Source of the DNA: Nitrospira sp. MA-1
Lineage (GTDB): Bacteria; Nitrospirota; Nitrospiria; Nitrospirales; UBA8639
DNA length: 64,000 bases
NCBI GenBank assembly: GCA_032139905.1
Contig: JAQJDB010000007.1
Coordinates: 1,426,001 to 1,490,000 of the forward strand
Direction: 5' to 3'
Below the pieces are notes generated by a model. The model saw only the letters and a list, made by a program, of their open reading frames with translations. It had not been told where the DNA came from and searched no databases. The position numbers were made by a program, and so were the translations under genes. Below are positions 25,811 to 32,670 of this stretch, piece by piece (within the stretch, counting starts at the first letter, position 1; every line of letters starts with the position of its first letter).

Positions 25811-27706
25811 ATGAGGATAAATTATGATAAAGGTGGTTTGATTCGCCCTGATAAAATTCAATTACCAAGATCAACCAACTTTAAAGAGTCATCCAGTAAG
25901 GCCAAAATCCTGTTGGTCTTCCCCCCGGACTGGTATCCTTCTGAACCCTATCTGAGCCTTCCAACCCTAACGGCTTTTCTTCGATCTGCCGGTCATGATG
26001 TCGTTCAAAAAGATGTTAATTTAGAAATGTACGACTGGTATTTTAGTCGGGATTTCCTCCGTCGCATTCTTAAAAAAGTTCCTCAGCAACTTGATCGCCT
26101 CAAAAAGATTGGGAAGAGTCGTGAGTTAACGGATGCGGAAGTGGATCTTCAGTTAGCTCTCTGCAATTGTACCCGAGGCTATATGAGCGATTTAGCTGAA
26201 AGAGCTGAGAAAGCAAAGGAAATTGTTCGAAGCCAAGAGTTTTATGAAAGTGAGAAGCTGGAATGGGTGATGAATACCTTTAGGGAGGTGACTGCCACAA
26301 TATCCTTGGTGTATGCCCCCGCAAGAATCTGCATGCCTCCCATGGAAACTGATTTATCCTATAAGCTGTTTATGTCGTCCGAAGTGCTGGAAGCCGTTGA
26401 AGATACTCAAGTCAATGTCTATCGGGACGTATTTGAGGAAATCCTGAAGCCTGCCATTCTAGCTGAAAAGCCCGATGTCATTGGGATTTCAATTGTTCTT
26501 CGACAACAATTGTTTTCCTCTATGACATTTTGTGCACTCATTAAGGAGCAATTCCCTGATATTCATATAACCATTGGAGGCAATACCGTAACCCGCCTGA
26601 GGGAAGTGCTTCCAGATACTCCAAAGTTATTCGCCTTATTTGACAGCGCGATTGTCTATGAAGGTGAAACTGCCCTGTTGCGATTGTTGGAAGCCATAGG
26701 CTCGGATGGGGATTTATCGCATGTTCCTAATTTACTATTCAGAGATGCAGCGGGAATTCATGTGAATTCCGAATCCTACGCCGAAAATATGGGCGAGTTG
26801 CCTCCCCCGGATTTCGACGGATTGCCATTAGAGAAATACTTTGTACCTGAGCCGATTCTTCCCTATTTAGCCACTCGGGGATGTTATTGGGGACGGTGTG
26901 AGTTCTGTGACCATGGTGAGGGTTATACGGCAGGGTACCGGACCAAAAGGGATTGGCAGATTATTGAAGAACTCACCTATTTGAAAAATAAGTATCATGC
27001 CCGGAGTTTTCATTTCACGGATGAGTCTTATCCACCCGCCTTATTCAGGAAGCTTACGAAGAAATTGATTGAGTCGAAATTAGATATTGCCTGGACCACA
27101 CATATCCGCTTCGAAAAGAGTCTTCTTGAGGATCAAGTCTGGGCGGATGCCCAGACTTCTGGATGCAAATTTCTCCATATGGGCTATGAATCCGGAAGTG
27201 AGCGTGTGCTTCAACTTATGGACAAGGCAACCACGACGGAGGTAATCCAGCGAAGCTTGGAGTTGTCCTCCCAACATGGGGTTTGGAATCATGTCATGGG
27301 GTTTTTTGGGTTCCCAGGGGAAACATACCAAGATGCGAAATTTTCTATCCAATTTTTAGAAGATAATCGAGAACACGTCCATTCAATTGGATTTGGTACC
27401 TTTGATTTGAGCAAGCATACTCCCGTCGCGAAAAATCCTGAAAAATTCGGCATTACCTATTATAAAAATCCGGAATGGGATTTGGCCTTGGATTATTATT
27501 TTACGGTGAAAGAAGGATTGAGTGTTGAGGATGCCGAACGGGTATTCGAAGAATTTGAACAAAATCATTATGCGGGGTGGGATTTGAAAATCTTTATTCG
27601 GGAATATGTGTTTTTATACGTGACCCACTTCGGAACCAATAAATTACCTTCTCTGCAATTTCGCCTCGACTCACATGATTCCTCATCGAAATTAGCCTCT
27701 GTCTAA
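25811..27706 (+). CDS. B12-binding-domain radical SAM protein (first of tandem pair)
   Basis: 631 residues. An N-terminal Rossmann-type cobalamin-binding region opens with ILLVFPPDWYPSEPYLSLP and LTAFLRSAGHDVVQKDV and resumes at KPDVIGISI and ITIGGNT; it lacks the DxHxxG motif that would ligate cobalt by His. A helical insert of about 150 residues separates the two halves. The radical SAM domain has RGCYWGRCEFCDHG with Cys at 358, 363 and 366, a CX4CX2C spacing instead of the usual CX3CX2C, then the barrel (FTDESYPP, HMGYESGSERVL, GFFGFPGET). Such enzymes often methylate unactivated carbon or rearrange skeletons; the substrate is unknown. The ribosome binding site is AGGGTG. The paralogue follows after 19 bases. 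Confidence 0.88.
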   Translation: MRINYDKGGLIRPDKIQLPRSTNFKESSSKAKILLVFPPDWYPSEPYLSLPTLTAFLRSAGHDVVQKDVNLEMYDWYFSRDFLRRILKKVPQQLDRLKKIGKSRELTDAEVDLQLALCNCTRGYMSDLAERAEKAKEIVRSQEFYESEKLEWVMNTFREVTATISLVYAPARICMPPMETDLSYKLFMSSEVLEAVEDTQVNVYRDVFEEILKPAILAEKPDVIGISIVLRQQLFSSMTFCALIKEQFPDIHITIGGNTVTRLREVLPDTPKLFALFDSAIVYEGETALLRLLEAIGSDGDLSHVPNLLFRDAAGIHVNSESYAENMGELPPPDFDGLPLEKYFVPEPILPYLATRGCYWGRCEFCDHGEGYTAGYRTKRDWQIIEELTYLKNKYHARSFHFTDESYPPALFRKLTKKLIESKLDIAWTTHIRFEKSLLEDQVWADAQTSGCKFLHMGYESGSERVLQLMDKATTTEVIQRSLELSSQHGVWNHVMGFFGFPGETYQDAKFSIQFLEDNREHVHSIGFGTFDLSKHTPVAKNPEKFGITYYKNPEWDLALDYYFTVKEGLSVEDAERVFEEFEQNHYAGWDLKIFIREYVFLYVTHFGTNKLPSLQFRLDSHDSSSKLASV

Positions 27707-27725
27707 TGTCAGGAGTGTTGATCAT

Positions 27726-29693
27726 ATGACTGAATCCTTAATTGAAATCGAGCGTGGTGGTTCCGTCGATAAATCCAGACGGACCTTTAAAACGATGTTG
27801 CTCTTTCCTCCGGAATGGGTTCCAACCGCTCCTTATCTTGCCCTGCCAAGTCTAACTGCCGTTCTTCGCTCATATGGACATGAGGTGATACAGAAAGATG
27901 TCAACATCGAAATGTATGACTGGTTTTTTAGTGATACCTTTCTAATCTGGGTCAAGCTTCGAATGGATCAGCAGCGACGAACTTTGAACGAACGGGACGC
28001 CCGAAATGAATTGACTGATTTTGAACGAGACCGACTGGCCTGTTTGAGATCCCAAGATGCTATAGACGTGATGGAATTGGCTGAACGAGCTATTGAAGCC
28101 AAAGTCATCGTGAGAGGCGAGGCATTTTATGATGCAGAAAAATTGGAATGGGCCTTAAAAATATTTAGAGATGTTATGCAATTTATTTCTGCAGCCTATT
28201 TTCCTGCTTCCCTCGTCTTCTATCCCATGGAAAGTAATCTGGGGTATCGCTCGGGAGTCTCGACTGAAGTGTTGGCATGCCTGGATGACGATCTTGTCAA
28301 CGTGTATCGGGATGTGTGCCGCCAGTTAGTGCTCCCTGCCATTCAGAAAGAGAAACCGGAAGTGATAGGAGTTTCCGTCGGAACCCAAATGCAACTCTTG
28401 GCGGGCATGACCTTTTGCAAAATGATTAAAGAGGAATTCCCTGACATTCATGTGACGGTGGGTGGCAACGTGATTACCCGGTTAAAAGATGATCTTCCCA
28501 AACGGAAGAAATTTTTTACGCAAGTCTTTGACTCGGCCATTTTGTATGAAGGCGAGCATGCGTTGGTTTGGTTGCTGGAAGCTCTGGCGGGGGAACGAGA
28601 CTGGGAAAAGGTCCCTAACTTGATGTGGCATCAAGAGGGGGAGATTCGTGTGAATGAGGAAATATATACAGAAAAGACGACCGCCTTGCCTCTTCCGGAC
28701 TTTGAGGGATTGCCGTTGGATGCCTATTTCGTCCCGGTTCGAATTTTACCTTACCTAGCCACACGAGGGTGTTACTGGGGACGATGTACCTTTTGTGATC
28801 ATGGACAGGGATATTTCGACCAGTATCGTGGAAAACCCGCGCATGATGTAGTCCGAGAAATCAAAGCATTGAAAGAAAAATATCAGGCAGAGCACTTTTT
28901 ATTTTCAGATGAATCCTATCCTCCCGCGTTATTGAAAAAAGTGTCGCAATTGTTGATTGAGGAGCAGGTGGGGATAAAATGGACGACATTAATCCGGTTT
29001 GAGGAATCATTGCAGGATCCTGAAATTTGGAAGCAAGCCGTTCAAGCAGGTTGTTGCACCCTGTATTATGGAATGGAATCAGCAAATGAGCGTGTTTTGG
29101 AGCTCATGGATAAGCATGCGAAAAAGGCTGTGATTGAAAACAATCTACGGGAGGCTGCCAAAGCCGGGATCTGGAATCATGTCATGGCTTTTTATGGATT
29201 TCCAGGTGAAACACGAGATGAGGCGGAGGAGACACGGGAATTTCTTCTTGATAATAAGCGATATATTCATTCTGTGGAATTATTCTATTTTGTGGCCTAC
29301 CGGCATACGCCAATGGTTCGGAATCCCGATAAGTTTGGTATCACCATTCATAAGCAGGAAGAGTATGATATGCCTCTCGATTACTATTACACGCTTAAGG
29401 AACCTGGTGGGATCACTTGTTTAGAGGCCATGCAATTGGCAGAGGAGTTTTATCAGAAGGACTTTGAACCATGGGCTGTTAGAGTCAATGCTCGTGAGCA
29501 TGTATTCCTCTACATTTCTAAATTCGGTACGAATTACCTACCTCAGATCTATGCGATGAAAGCCGGGCAGGATGAACCGCGAATCGATGGGGTTCAAGGT
29601 CTCATTACTTGGCCTGTGTCTCATGCGCCCTCCGAGAAAAATTCAAAAGGTGAGCCCGGAATGTCCCGGGTGGTCAGTCATTCTGCTCCGTGA
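27726..29693 (+). CDS. B12-binding-domain radical SAM protein (second of tandem pair)
   Basis: 655 residues, clearly a paralogue of the preceding gene along its whole length (MLLFPPEWVPTAPYLALP, KPEVIGVSV, VTVGGNV, RGCYWGRCTFCDHG, FSDESYPP, AFYGFPGET). Cluster Cys residues are at 349, 354 and 357, again CX4CX2C. The helical insert between the two cobalamin-region halves is the most diverged part, so the two proteins may take different substrates or act as a heteromer. The C-terminal tail after ISKFGTNYLPQ is longer and Ser/Pro-rich. AGGAG precedes the ATG by ten bases. The pair surely forms an operon. Its 3' end overlaps the convergent J-like gene by 16 bases. Confidence 0.88.
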   Translation: MTESLIEIERGGSVDKSRRTFKTMLLFPPEWVPTAPYLALPSLTAVLRSYGHEVIQKDVNIEMYDWFFSDTFLIWVKLRMDQQRRTLNERDARNELTDFERDRLACLRSQDAIDVMELAERAIEAKVIVRGEAFYDAEKLEWALKIFRDVMQFISAAYFPASLVFYPMESNLGYRSGVSTEVLACLDDDLVNVYRDVCRQLVLPAIQKEKPEVIGVSVGTQMQLLAGMTFCKMIKEEFPDIHVTVGGNVITRLKDDLPKRKKFFTQVFDSAILYEGEHALVWLLEALAGERDWEKVPNLMWHQEGEIRVNEEIYTEKTTALPLPDFEGLPLDAYFVPVRILPYLATRGCYWGRCTFCDHGQGYFDQYRGKPAHDVVREIKALKEKYQAEHFLFSDESYPPALLKKVSQLLIEEQVGIKWTTLIRFEESLQDPEIWKQAVQAGCCTLYYGMESANERVLELMDKHAKKAVIENNLREAAKAGIWNHVMAFYGFPGETRDEAEETREFLLDNKRYIHSVELFYFVAYRHTPMVRNPDKFGITIHKQEEYDMPLDYYYTLKEPGGITCLEAMQLAEEFYQKDFEPWAVRVNAREHVFLYISKFGTNYLPQIYAMKAGQDEPRIDGVQGLITWPVSHAPSEKNSKGEPGMSRVVSHSAP

Positions 29694-29941
29694 TCATATT
29701 TTTGTGGAGAGGAACCGGAATTCCGCAGATGATCGGATAGAATTTGATAGGCTGCATGAATTTCTTTAGTTTTGGTCTCTCCCTTTTTGTACATTTCCAT
29801 ATATTTCGCTGGATTATTGGTGAGGCCCGCGTAACGTGATGGGAACCAGATTCGCCTGGCATCTTCATAGCGTTGCTGTAAGACATCATGCGAAAACGGC
29901 TCGCTTAGATTGAAGAGAAGCAGTGCGTATTCTAGGGTCAT
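29678..29941 (-). CDS. J-domain-like protein without HPD
   Basis: 87 residues; AAGGGA lies nine bases before the ATG. The sequence follows the J-domain plan: a first helix (YALLLFNLSEPFS), a second helix (DVLQQRYEDARRI), a loop, then KTKEIHAAYQILSDHL as helix III. Where DnaJ proteins have HPD this one reads WFPSRY, so it should not stimulate the Hsp70 ATPase in the normal way. Degenerate J-like domains often serve as binding modules. It runs against the radical SAM genes and its end overlaps the second one. Confidence 0.6.
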   Translation of the reverse strand: MTLEYALLLFNLSEPFSHDVLQQRYEDARRIWFPSRYAGLTNNPAKYMEMYKKGETKTKEIHAAYQILSDHLRNSGSSPQKYDHGAE

Positions 29942-30094
29942 AAAGTTTGAATCCCTTGAGAAGGTATGAATTTTTTATCAGAAGGTCTTATAATACTCAG
30001 CAGGCCGATTAAGATTCTCAAGTGTTTCAAAGGAGCAGTGGTACTGTCAATTGGATTTCAGGCTACCCACAGTCGGTCTTTTTTTTAGAAAGGG

Positions 30095-31339
30095 TTGACG
30101 ATATTGCGTGAACTTCCAATATTAGAAGCTCCAAAGCTATTTGCCGGACACGATTACCGGGACGTGTTGAAGCGGGAAATGGATGCAGGAAAAATTCCAT
30201 TGAGCCTAGGAAAAGAATGTCCTGTCAAATGTGCGTTTTGTTATGAATTAGATCATTCCTACCGAGAAACGCTGGACCCACCAAAAACCTCCCAAGAGGA
30301 CTGGCAGTTCATTTTGAATTATATTAGCTCCAAGCCAACGGATCCTCTTCAGTTCTGGTGCCTTGGTGGTAATGAATACATGGAATGGACCGATTTGTTT
30401 CTTCATCCAAAGGCCATGGAGTGGATCGAAGATTTTTTGAAATTTACCGATAAAAACATTCAATTTTTTACGGTTGGTTTTGTCCATGTTCCCAAGATTC
30501 ATCGGTTGGTTGACCAATACCCTGGAAGAATTAATTTTGAGTTATCTGTCATTACCCTTGGAGAGTATCGACAAAAACTGATGCCGCATGCTCCATCTGT
30601 GAAACATCTGATGAAGGTCTTGGATGGCCCAGCGGTTTCTTCGGCAAACTTTTATGCTTTTGATAAAAATACGATGTCCACAGATGCGGAAAAGATTTCC
30701 CGGATCAATTCTCGATGCGTACTGTGGATGGGATGTTTGACGCCGGTGGGCGGGATTCAAGAGGACACAGCTCGTGTGATGCGACAAGGTAGAAAATATC
30801 TTGCTGTTGAAGCGGAAAGAATATACGATGCGGACCTTCCAAATTTTACGACAATTCATACGGAAGCCTATGTGACGGCTTTTTTGAATCGGAAGCGTAT
30901 TGTTAGTCTCTTTGATTCTTTGGAATTGGAAAAGCGTGATTCAATTGTCATGGCGGGTAGTGTGTATCGGATTTTAGCCATGTTCAGGAAAAATCGAGCC
31001 AGGTTCCTCTCTGTTCCGAATGCCACGCTTGGAGGAGATTCTGATTGTACGGTCTTGCTGACCCTGAATGACATAGCCAAACGATTGACAAAGGAAAAAT
31101 TTATCCATGTCCCTCAATGTATTGTGGAGTCAGGAAGAGGTCCAGGTCGCGATATTGCGGGGGTTCACATTGACGACTTTGTAAGTAAGACCGGAGTGAA
31201 AATAAGGATTCTGCCAAAAATTAGTACTAAGTTTGCCAATAATCGATTGTATCGCAATGGATCATTGCAAAACTATGTGGAGGATTATGTGCGTAATCCC
31301 TTGGTTCGTTCGTATGAAGCGATCGCGCCCATAGTGTAA
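30095..31339 (+). CDS. Radical SAM protein of unknown function
   Basis: 414 residues. LSLGKECPVKCAFCYE gives a canonical CX3CX2C cluster at Cys 42, 46 and 49, and FWCLGGNEYMEW shortly after fits the GGE-type SAM-binding strand. The C-terminal half (SVPNATLGGDSDCTVLLTLNDIA) recalls the C-terminal region of DUF512-type radical SAM proteins, weakly. There is no cobalamin domain, so it is not a third copy of the upstream pair. The start is TTG 30095 or TTG 30104; AAAGG at 30090 suits the second better. It lies 400 bases after the tandem pair on the same strand, with only the convergent J-like gene between, so a common pathway is possible. Confidence 0.78.
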   Translation: MTILRELPILEAPKLFAGHDYRDVLKREMDAGKIPLSLGKECPVKCAFCYELDHSYRETLDPPKTSQEDWQFILNYISSKPTDPLQFWCLGGNEYMEWTDLFLHPKAMEWIEDFLKFTDKNIQFFTVGFVHVPKIHRLVDQYPGRINFELSVITLGEYRQKLMPHAPSVKHLMKVLDGPAVSSANFYAFDKNTMSTDAEKISRINSRCVLWMGCLTPVGGIQEDTARVMRQGRKYLAVEAERIYDADLPNFTTIHTEAYVTAFLNRKRIVSLFDSLELEKRDSIVMAGSVYRILAMFRKNRARFLSVPNATLGGDSDCTVLLTLNDIAKRLTKEKFIHVPQCIVESGRGPGRDIAGVHIDDFVSKTGVKIRILPKISTKFANNRLYRNGSLQNYVEDYVRNPLVRSYEAIAPIV

Positions 31340-31426
31340 ATTGTCTTAAAGTTTTGTAATGGAATTTGATGGGAGGGTAGGTGGTCCAAAGCTACCCGAC
31401 AAATAAAAATTTCTGAGATTATCCTG

Positions 31427-31639
31427 GTGAAAAAACTAAGAGGATTTTTATTTTTTTTGTTACTACTTGGGGCTATAGGGTGTTCCGGAAATCTGGAAAG
31501 CCAAGAGACGTTTAATCTGCAGAAAAATGAAAATGATTCTTTTAGATGTGAAGAAATGACTAATGCAAGGTTAGGGGGTAGAGGCGTTCCTGACTGGCAA
31601 CGAGTGTATGAAGAATGCATGGTCACGGGAGGGCAGTAA
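31427..31639 (+). CDS. Small putative lipoprotein, 70 residues
   Basis: GTG start. The N terminus KKLRGFLFFLLLLGAIGC is a signal peptide ending in a lipobox (LGAIGC), so the protein should be lipidated and exported. The mature part is about 50 residues, polar, with two further Cys (FRCEEM, YEECM) that could form a disulfide. No known family. It follows the third radical SAM gene on the same strand by about 90 bases. Confidence 0.65.
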   Translation: MKKLRGFLFFLLLLGAIGCSGNLESQETFNLQKNENDSFRCEEMTNARLGGRGVPDWQRVYEECMVTGGQ

Positions 31640-31737
31640 AAGTGTTCGGATATTATGCAAAACCATGTAAGGTTTTGTGGATTTGAAATTCGTGTGACAT
31701 GTTTCTAATCCGTCCTGAAATGTTTCTCTAGTTGATT

Positions 31738-32670
31738 ATGGATTCTCCTAAAAACTGGCTGCAATTTTATCAGGTTGATGTATTCACAAGTGAGCCGTTT
31801 GGCGGGAATCCTTTAGCGGTGTTTCCCTCAGCGGGAGAGCTTAGTGAACGGGAGTTTCAACAAATTGCGCGTGAAATGAATTTGTCTGAAACGGTGTTTG
31901 TCCTACCGCCTACCGATCCCAAGGCTGCCGCTAAGGTCAGAATATTTACCCCTCTTCAGGAAATTCCGTTTGCAGGCCATCCAATTTTGGGGACATTCTA
32001 TGTTCTCGGAACAATGAAACATCTGGCCTTGCAGGAGCCCGTGACGAAAGTTTTCTATGAATGTACCCTAGGCTTGTATGCGCTTGACCTCATTGTTCTG
32101 AGGGGGCAAATTGAACAGGTCATTATGTCGCAACCCTCTCCGCAATTTATCGATGTCATCACACAGGCGGAAGCCATTTATGATATTGCCAAGGCTTTGG
32201 GAATTCACAGATCGCTCATTGCCGACACAATTTTCCCTGTTGAAGTGGTCTCGACAGGATTGCCGGTGCTCGTTGTGCCTATACGAAGCTTGACGGCCGC
32301 AAAATCCATGGAGGTTGATCATTCTGAAGTTCTAGAGATTTGTGCTCGCTTTGGGGCCAATGGAATTATGATCTTCACGACGATGACAGTGGAGGAAAGC
32401 GCCACTGTTCACACTAGAATGTTTGCCGATCCAATTGGTATTTCCGAGGACCCTGCAACCGGCAGCGCAAGTGGCGCCCTTGGTGCCTATTTAGTCAAGA
32501 ATGGAGTCGTGGAAGTTGGTCCAACCACCGAAATAGTTATGGAGCAGGGGTATGAAATTGACCGGCCATCCCGTATTTTGGTGCAGGTTTTTTCTGATGA
32601 TGATGTGATTAAGGAAATTAAAGTGGGAGGGCAGGTGGTAATGGTGGCGGAAGGAAAGATGGTTTACTAG
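31738..32670 (+). CDS. PhzF-family isomerase/epimerase-like protein
   Basis: 310 residues from ATG 31738 (TTG 31732 is possible). The family signature is strong: FYQVDVFTSEPFGGNPLAVFP, the catalytic Glu in MNLSETVFV, RIFTPLQEIPFAGHPILGT, and the C-terminal RMFADPIGISEDPATGSASGAL. PhzF proteins isomerise or epimerise small carboxylates; only one member acts in phenazine synthesis, and no phz genes are here, so the substrate is unknown. It stands alone, converging on the moaB-like gene. Confidence 0.88.
   Translation: MDSPKNWLQFYQVDVFTSEPFGGNPLAVFPSAGELSEREFQQIAREMNLSETVFVLPPTDPKAAAKVRIFTPLQEIPFAGHPILGTFYVLGTMKHLALQEPVTKVFYECTLGLYALDLIVLRGQIEQVIMSQPSPQFIDVITQAEAIYDIAKALGIHRSLIADTIFPVEVVSTGLPVLVVPIRSLTAAKSMEVDHSEVLEICARFGANGIMIFTTMTVEESATVHTRMFADPIGISEDPATGSASGALGAYLVKNGVVEVGPTTEIVMEQGYEIDRPSRILVQVFSDDDVIKEIKVGGQVVMVAEGKMVY

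Follow-up and report, generated by a model that had tools for sequence, protein, structure and literature searches.

Cobalamin-dependent radical SAM enzymes most often methylate an unactivated carbon (PMC11659888). Two of these enzymes, MgmA and Mmp10, methylate methyl-CoM reductase (MCR). MgmA (9ccb), the MCR glutamine C-methylase, consists of an N-terminal Rossmann B12 domain and a radical SAM domain and acts on a protein, and a small growth effect has been reported for the methylation that depends on it (PMC11796369). In Mmp10 and the other DUF512 enzymes, the radical SAM domain is followed by a C-terminal DUF512 domain, and an aromatic residue directly after the third cluster cysteine lies between the cluster and the cobalamin. 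Cobalamin binding by DUF512 was shown for four proteins and is seen in two crystal structures, and MeCbl formation by the DUF512 enzymes was also reported (PMC11659888). In a review, the DUF512-type enzymes make up 'class 2' of the cobalamin radical SAM enzymes (PMC13331322). GenD1 and GenK perform cobalamin-dependent C-methylation of an aminoglycoside substrate and carry a CX4CX2C cluster motif (PMC4340712).

The locus described here lies in a window of 64,000 nucleotides (G000 contig C7:1426001-1490000) within a 4.76 Mb Nitrospirales genome. The host is probably a marine nitrite-oxidizing member of the Nitrospirales, lineage IV or UBA8639 of the literature. In a contig scan, the closest named relatives of the locus were Nitrospirales bacteria such as NPIRA06 and NPIRA03. 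The features of the locus are listed in Table 1.

Table 1. Positions of the genes and motifs of the locus within the window
Feature	Position	Strand	Remarks
Gene A, class-1 B12 radical SAM enzyme (predicted)	25811..27706	+	631 aa; N-terminal Rossmann B12 domain; CX4CX2C
Cluster-loop motif of A, CYWGRCEFC	26882..26908	+	CX4CX2C; seen in the sequence
Gene B, paralogue of A (predicted class 1)	27726..29693	+	655 aa; architecture as in A; C-terminal tail of its own
Cluster-loop motif of B, CYWGRCTFC	28770..28796	+	CX4CX2C; seen in the sequence
DnaJ-like gene (weak match, E 0.006)	29678..29941	-	87 aa; between B and C; synteny kept order-wide
Gene C, class-2 cobalamin radical SAM enzyme (predicted)	30095..31339	+	414 aa; radical SAM and C-terminal DUF512; Mmp10-like
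Cluster motif of gene C, CPVKCAFC (position: whole gene)	30095..31339	+	CX3CX2C; invariant Tyr50 directly after
Small lipoprotein ORF	31427..31639	+	close relatives only
PhzF-family isomerase gene	31732..32670	+	syntenic neighbor

The layout agrees with the preliminary description, in which two full-length paralogues with a 19-base gap were followed on the same strand by a third radical SAM protein with a CX3CX2C motif. Because the DnaJ-like gene between B and C is on the opposite strand, the three genes are not a single uninterrupted operon. The small lipoprotein gene that was said to follow is indeed present, but it is conserved in 4 of 80 loci, and it is outside the conserved unit. Neither a cobalamin riboswitch nor any other Rfam family was found within the window.

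Predicted enzyme classes of A, B, and C

Genes A and B share 50% identity. Both contain a radical SAM domain (E 1e-11 in A and 2e-18 in B) with the three cluster cysteines. The B12-binding domain scored 34.9 bits in A and 30.0 bits in B, the latter about 2 bits under the cut-off of 32.1, and the fold matches of B agree with an N-terminal Rossmann B12 domain. The cobalamin-type N-terminal region proposed for both paralogues is thereby supported. The AF2 model of B (mean pLDDT 82) matched OxsB, TsrM, MgmA, CysS, AprD4, and TokK in a fold search; OxsB, TsrM, MgmA, CysS, and TokK are all cobalamin radical SAM enzymes. MgmA was the sole PDB match of B in a single-sequence search, and OxsB scored above MgmA when B was compared by profile. 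The identity of MgmA and B in the fold alignment is 21%, and the sequence match covers residues 269-506 only. MgmA also differs in being archaeal, with a methanogen enzyme as its substrate. The model of B shows the Rossmann domain split by a helical insert, about 120 residues long (helices in residues 59-209). MgmA, with only 450 aa, has no room for such an insert.

The insert had been described as the most divergent part of the two paralogues, which is only partly right. Among the folded regions, the A-B identity relative to the within-group identity is 0.57 in the insert and 0.50 in the C-terminal part, so divergence in the C-terminal part is no smaller than in the insert, and it is greatest at the two termini. 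The RGCYWGRC.FCDHG motif reported for A and B is present in the form RGCYWG[RK]C[ET]FCDHG in every A or B orthologue read. However, CX4CX2C as a distinguishing feature had to be given up, since it is published for GenD1 and occurs in every relative inspected, including two rhizobial relatives and the other paralogues of this genome. The rhizobial relatives are full-length proteins with about 26% identity, and their gene context is uninformative.

The best NCBIfam profile matches of A and B are PhpK, TIGR03975, and ApyD (E 1e-25 to 1e-38). Their scores of 88-132 bits are well under half of the curated cut-offs of 282-750 bits, and no NCBIfam equivalog comes near its cut-off for A or B. The nearest solved relatives are remote, and no close characterized homologue, which the preliminary description had named as a ground for rejection, was found. 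The surroundings of the pair also differ from those of the known enzymes: there is no aminoglycoside biosynthetic cluster at the locus as for GenD1 and GenK, and no phosphonate or RiPP context as for PhpK, TIGR03975, and ApyD.

Gene C had been taken for a radical SAM protein with no cobalamin domain, and we reject this assignment. For the copy of C in the window, Pfam and NCBIfam gave no match at standard thresholds, with DUF512 below threshold, but Radical_SAM and a DUF512 domain C-terminal to it were both matched in 27 of 32 orthologues (best DUF512 E 2e-5). The AlphaFold model of C is moderately confident (pLDDT 66). Foldseek returned only two matches below E 0.001, the Pyrococcus furiosus DUF512 protein (4e-5) and Mmp10 (2e-4). 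The same two were ranked first by VIA-align with a Z of 13.4 over 284-320 residues, compared with 11.3 for the best other family. Tyr50, directly after the third cluster cysteine, is invariant and corresponds to the aromatic F95 of csDUF512 (PMC11659888). The relationship is distant: C is 10-14% identical to the Mmp10/DUF512 enzymes and has no PDZ domain, no NCBIfam Mmp10 model is among the matches of the 32 orthologues, and the C profile matched no PDB sequence. With the DUF512 domain and the Mmp10-like fold of C, the number of predicted cobalamin radical SAM enzymes at the locus rises from two to three. Judged from domain matches and models, A and B very probably belong to class 1 and C to class 2. 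Cobalamin binding is predicted for all three, and methylation is the predicted function of A and B.

Conservation and the relation to nitrite oxidation

The contig scan for related loci reports close relatives only, and the gene-order maps cover its 80 loci. The order A-B-DnaJ-like(-)-C-PhzF is repeated across these Nitrospirales loci, with C missing in a subset. The recurring neighborhood, suggested earlier as a check, is thus present in most sampled Nitrospirales. The 87-aa DnaJ-like gene holds its place between B and C across the order.

Of 296 genomes from the phylum, 100 gave matches of B below E 1e-60. One of these is a more distant relative with 31% identity; the other 99 are Nitrospirales, among which six carry only a third paralogue (see below). 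Gene A is present in 168 of 197 Nitrospirales genomes and gene C in 113, of which 109 also have A; the four exceptions are incomplete genomes. The Fisher p of 3e-7 for this nesting ignores shared ancestry. In a quick tree with uncertain long outer branches, A forms a single clade, as do B and the third paralogue, and family f3 is included in each of them (family and genome labels are those of the genomes searched, and published family names are inferred). The duplication that gave A and B therefore predates the split of the nitrite-oxidizing families, which supports the divided labor suggested for the two paralogues.

The strongest clue to function is the association with nitrite oxidation and its enzyme, nitrite oxidoreductase (NXR); this association is hidden from a reading of the window's sequence alone. 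At the thresholds applied, family f40 (four genomes, 73-96% complete) has none of NxrA, A, B, C, and the third paralogue. This fits published work in which a single family of the order, UBA2166, lacks NXR and NS-4 is the deepest to have it (PMC12342949); we infer that f40 is UBA2166 and f3 is NS-4. In one f3 genome (G299), A-B lies 4.5 kb from nxrA, with nxrAB on the same contig, and in another (G283) about 6.6 kb from an nxrB fragment, with the contig ending in nxrB. This linkage, from two metagenome assemblies, is suggestive only, because mis-joins are likely where contigs end in repeated nxr copies. In the window's own genome, the A-B pair is unlinked to nxrAB. There, contig C5 ends inside a third nxrA copy (L147, G000:C5:667000-674948), which is 100% identical to the first over 731 aa, as at a repeat break.

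The association has exceptions. Within family f2, at least ten genomes, which belong to two genera, have neither A nor C. Three of them (G216, G267, and G285) also lack B although their NxrA is full-length, and in the nine-contig assembly G344 the PhzF locus is intact and the A-B pair is gone. The pair is therefore not indispensable for NXR, and losses of A, B, and C with NXR retained speak against a direct role. Six of the ten genomes without A are AmoA-positive (comammox), but many comammox genomes keep the pair, and comammox lifestyle as the cause of the loss fits only in part. The co-occurrence with NXR comes from one clade split, for which about 140 marker genes were proposed (PMC12342949), and it may reflect any of these genes. 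Overall, a role of A, B, and C tied to the nitrite-oxidizer lifestyle seems rather probable.

The third paralogue (G000:C6:665210-666865; L136:10214-11983) is 35% identical to A and contains RGCYYKDCAFC, again CX4CX2C. In the window's genome it is clustered with a two-component system, a ferredoxin, a nitrate-reductase-delta (TorD-like) chaperone, two ethylbenzene-dehydrogenase-gamma (NxrC-type) proteins, and a multihaem cytochrome. Each of the 16 NXR-clade genomes that were tested directly has it, and it is kept in all ten genomes without A. In 14 further genomes, from two families, it is preceded by an NxrC-type (EB_dh) gene, which makes 15 with the window's genome, and the TorD-like gene lies beyond this gene wherever the examined stretch reaches. 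In content, the cluster matches NITMOv2_3614-3631 of N. moscoviensis, which was proposed to be diagnostic for nitrite oxidation (PMC12342949) and contains the highly expressed nxrC_2 with its TorD-like chaperone (PMC12342949, PMC6606698). The third paralogue is arguably a better candidate for an NXR modifier than the A-B pair. A fourth, more distant B12-radical SAM paralogue of 734 aa with HGCYWKQCTFC (L137:9828-12032; G000:C7 around 1085300-1087500) has relatives in other Nitrospirota.

Proposed reaction and alternative substrates

We propose, largely by analogy, that A, B, and C may be C-methylases serving the nitrite-oxidizing machinery, with a protein of the respiratory apparatus as the most likely target; we give this reading a probability of about 0.4. 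A and B would have arisen by one duplication before the nitrite-oxidizing Nitrospirales families diverged, and C would work alongside them. In each enzyme, a first SAM would give methylcobalamin, and a second SAM would be cleaved at the [4Fe-4S] cluster, leading to abstraction of a hydrogen atom from an unactivated carbon. The methyl group would then be transferred to this carbon. C-methylation is a likely reaction for these enzymes, and their substrate is speculative. The target would be a protein, or less likely a cofactor, of the nitrite-oxidizing respiratory apparatus, methylated post-translationally in the case of a protein, as MCR is by MgmA and Mmp10. A protein is preferred because MgmA is the sole single-sequence PDB match of B, the best fold matches of C are Mmp10 and a DUF512 enzyme, and the nearest paralogue is located among NXR assembly genes. 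The arrival of the pair with nitrite oxidation and the position of the third paralogue beside nxrC-type and TorD-like genes also make a protein the most likely target. NXR or its partner proteins as the direct target is unlikely. It is likewise improbable that the system is the bacterial equivalent of MCR modification in methanogens. In such a system, the two class-1 enzymes, the class-2 enzyme, and the third paralogue would methylate NXR or its partner cytochromes, and B12-dependent protein methylation would belong to nitrification.

If A and B serve the nitrite-oxidizing machinery, they would be dispensable in some lineages, which would fit the small growth effect reported for the methylation that depends on MgmA (PMC11796369). 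Nitrospirales include most known nitrite oxidizers and the complete ammonia oxidizers, and many genes that mark their nitrite-oxidizing lifestyle have no assigned function (PMC12342949). If the enzymes do modify this machinery, nitrification would have a further, new dependence on vitamin B12, and modified residues not yet recognized would be present in an enzyme system that is central to the nitrogen cycle. Our literature search found no link between radical SAM enzymes and nitrite oxidation in Nitrospira. Against the proposal, the paper on the Kuenenia NXR structure uses the word 'methylated' for no residue; the gene comparison covered Nitrospirales and other members of their phylum.

A small-molecule substrate is almost as likely as a protein. 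Here A, B, and C would belong to a pathway for a lipid, quinone, tetrapyrrole, or cofactor typical of nitrite-oxidizing Nitrospirales and would not act on NXR itself; we regard this as a plausible competitor, at somewhat less than even odds. The profile matches range over ladderane-type lipid, HpnJ, HpnR, BchE, and BzaD families, and some genomes have lost the pair while retaining NXR. C is also dispensable in 59 genomes where A stays, as optional decorations are. However, the conserved surroundings of the pair include no further pathway genes, every equivalog score is far below its cut-off, and the most closely related paralogue lies in the NXR accessory cluster.

It is also conceivable, though doubtful, that the gene order is inherited adjacency, with A and B as a functional pair and C, the DnaJ-like gene, and PhzF in unrelated processes. 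The 59 genomes with A and without C favor this explanation, as does family f3, in which C is on contigs other than those of A-B. PhzF is kept where A, B, and C were lost, so it is not counted in the unit, and its candidacy as a functional partner is weakened. On the other hand, C almost never occurs without A (4 of 113, all in incomplete genomes), and each of the two is predicted to be a cobalamin radical SAM enzyme. The pathway reading of the preliminary description is partly supported: the neighborhood recurs, but the A-B pair can be separated from C, PhzF, and the lipoprotein. Maturation of a ribosomally made peptide, as by TIGR03975 or ApyD, is very improbable: the best A and B profiles (TIGR03975, PhpK, and ApyD) point that way, but their scores fall far below the cut-offs, the precursor search around the pair gave nothing beyond repeats and antisense shadows of genes located downstream, no short conserved ORF was found in synteny with the pair, and no RiPP gene was recognized among the neighbors tested.

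Sequences related to B also appeared under other taxonomic labels. Contigs filed under Nitrospinota and Omnitrophota (L051 and L057) carry B at 74-75% identity and are probably binning errors. A genome from another class of the phylum (G104, also L138) has a large set of B12-radical SAM genes, with 18 B-related places, about half of them on its contig C31.
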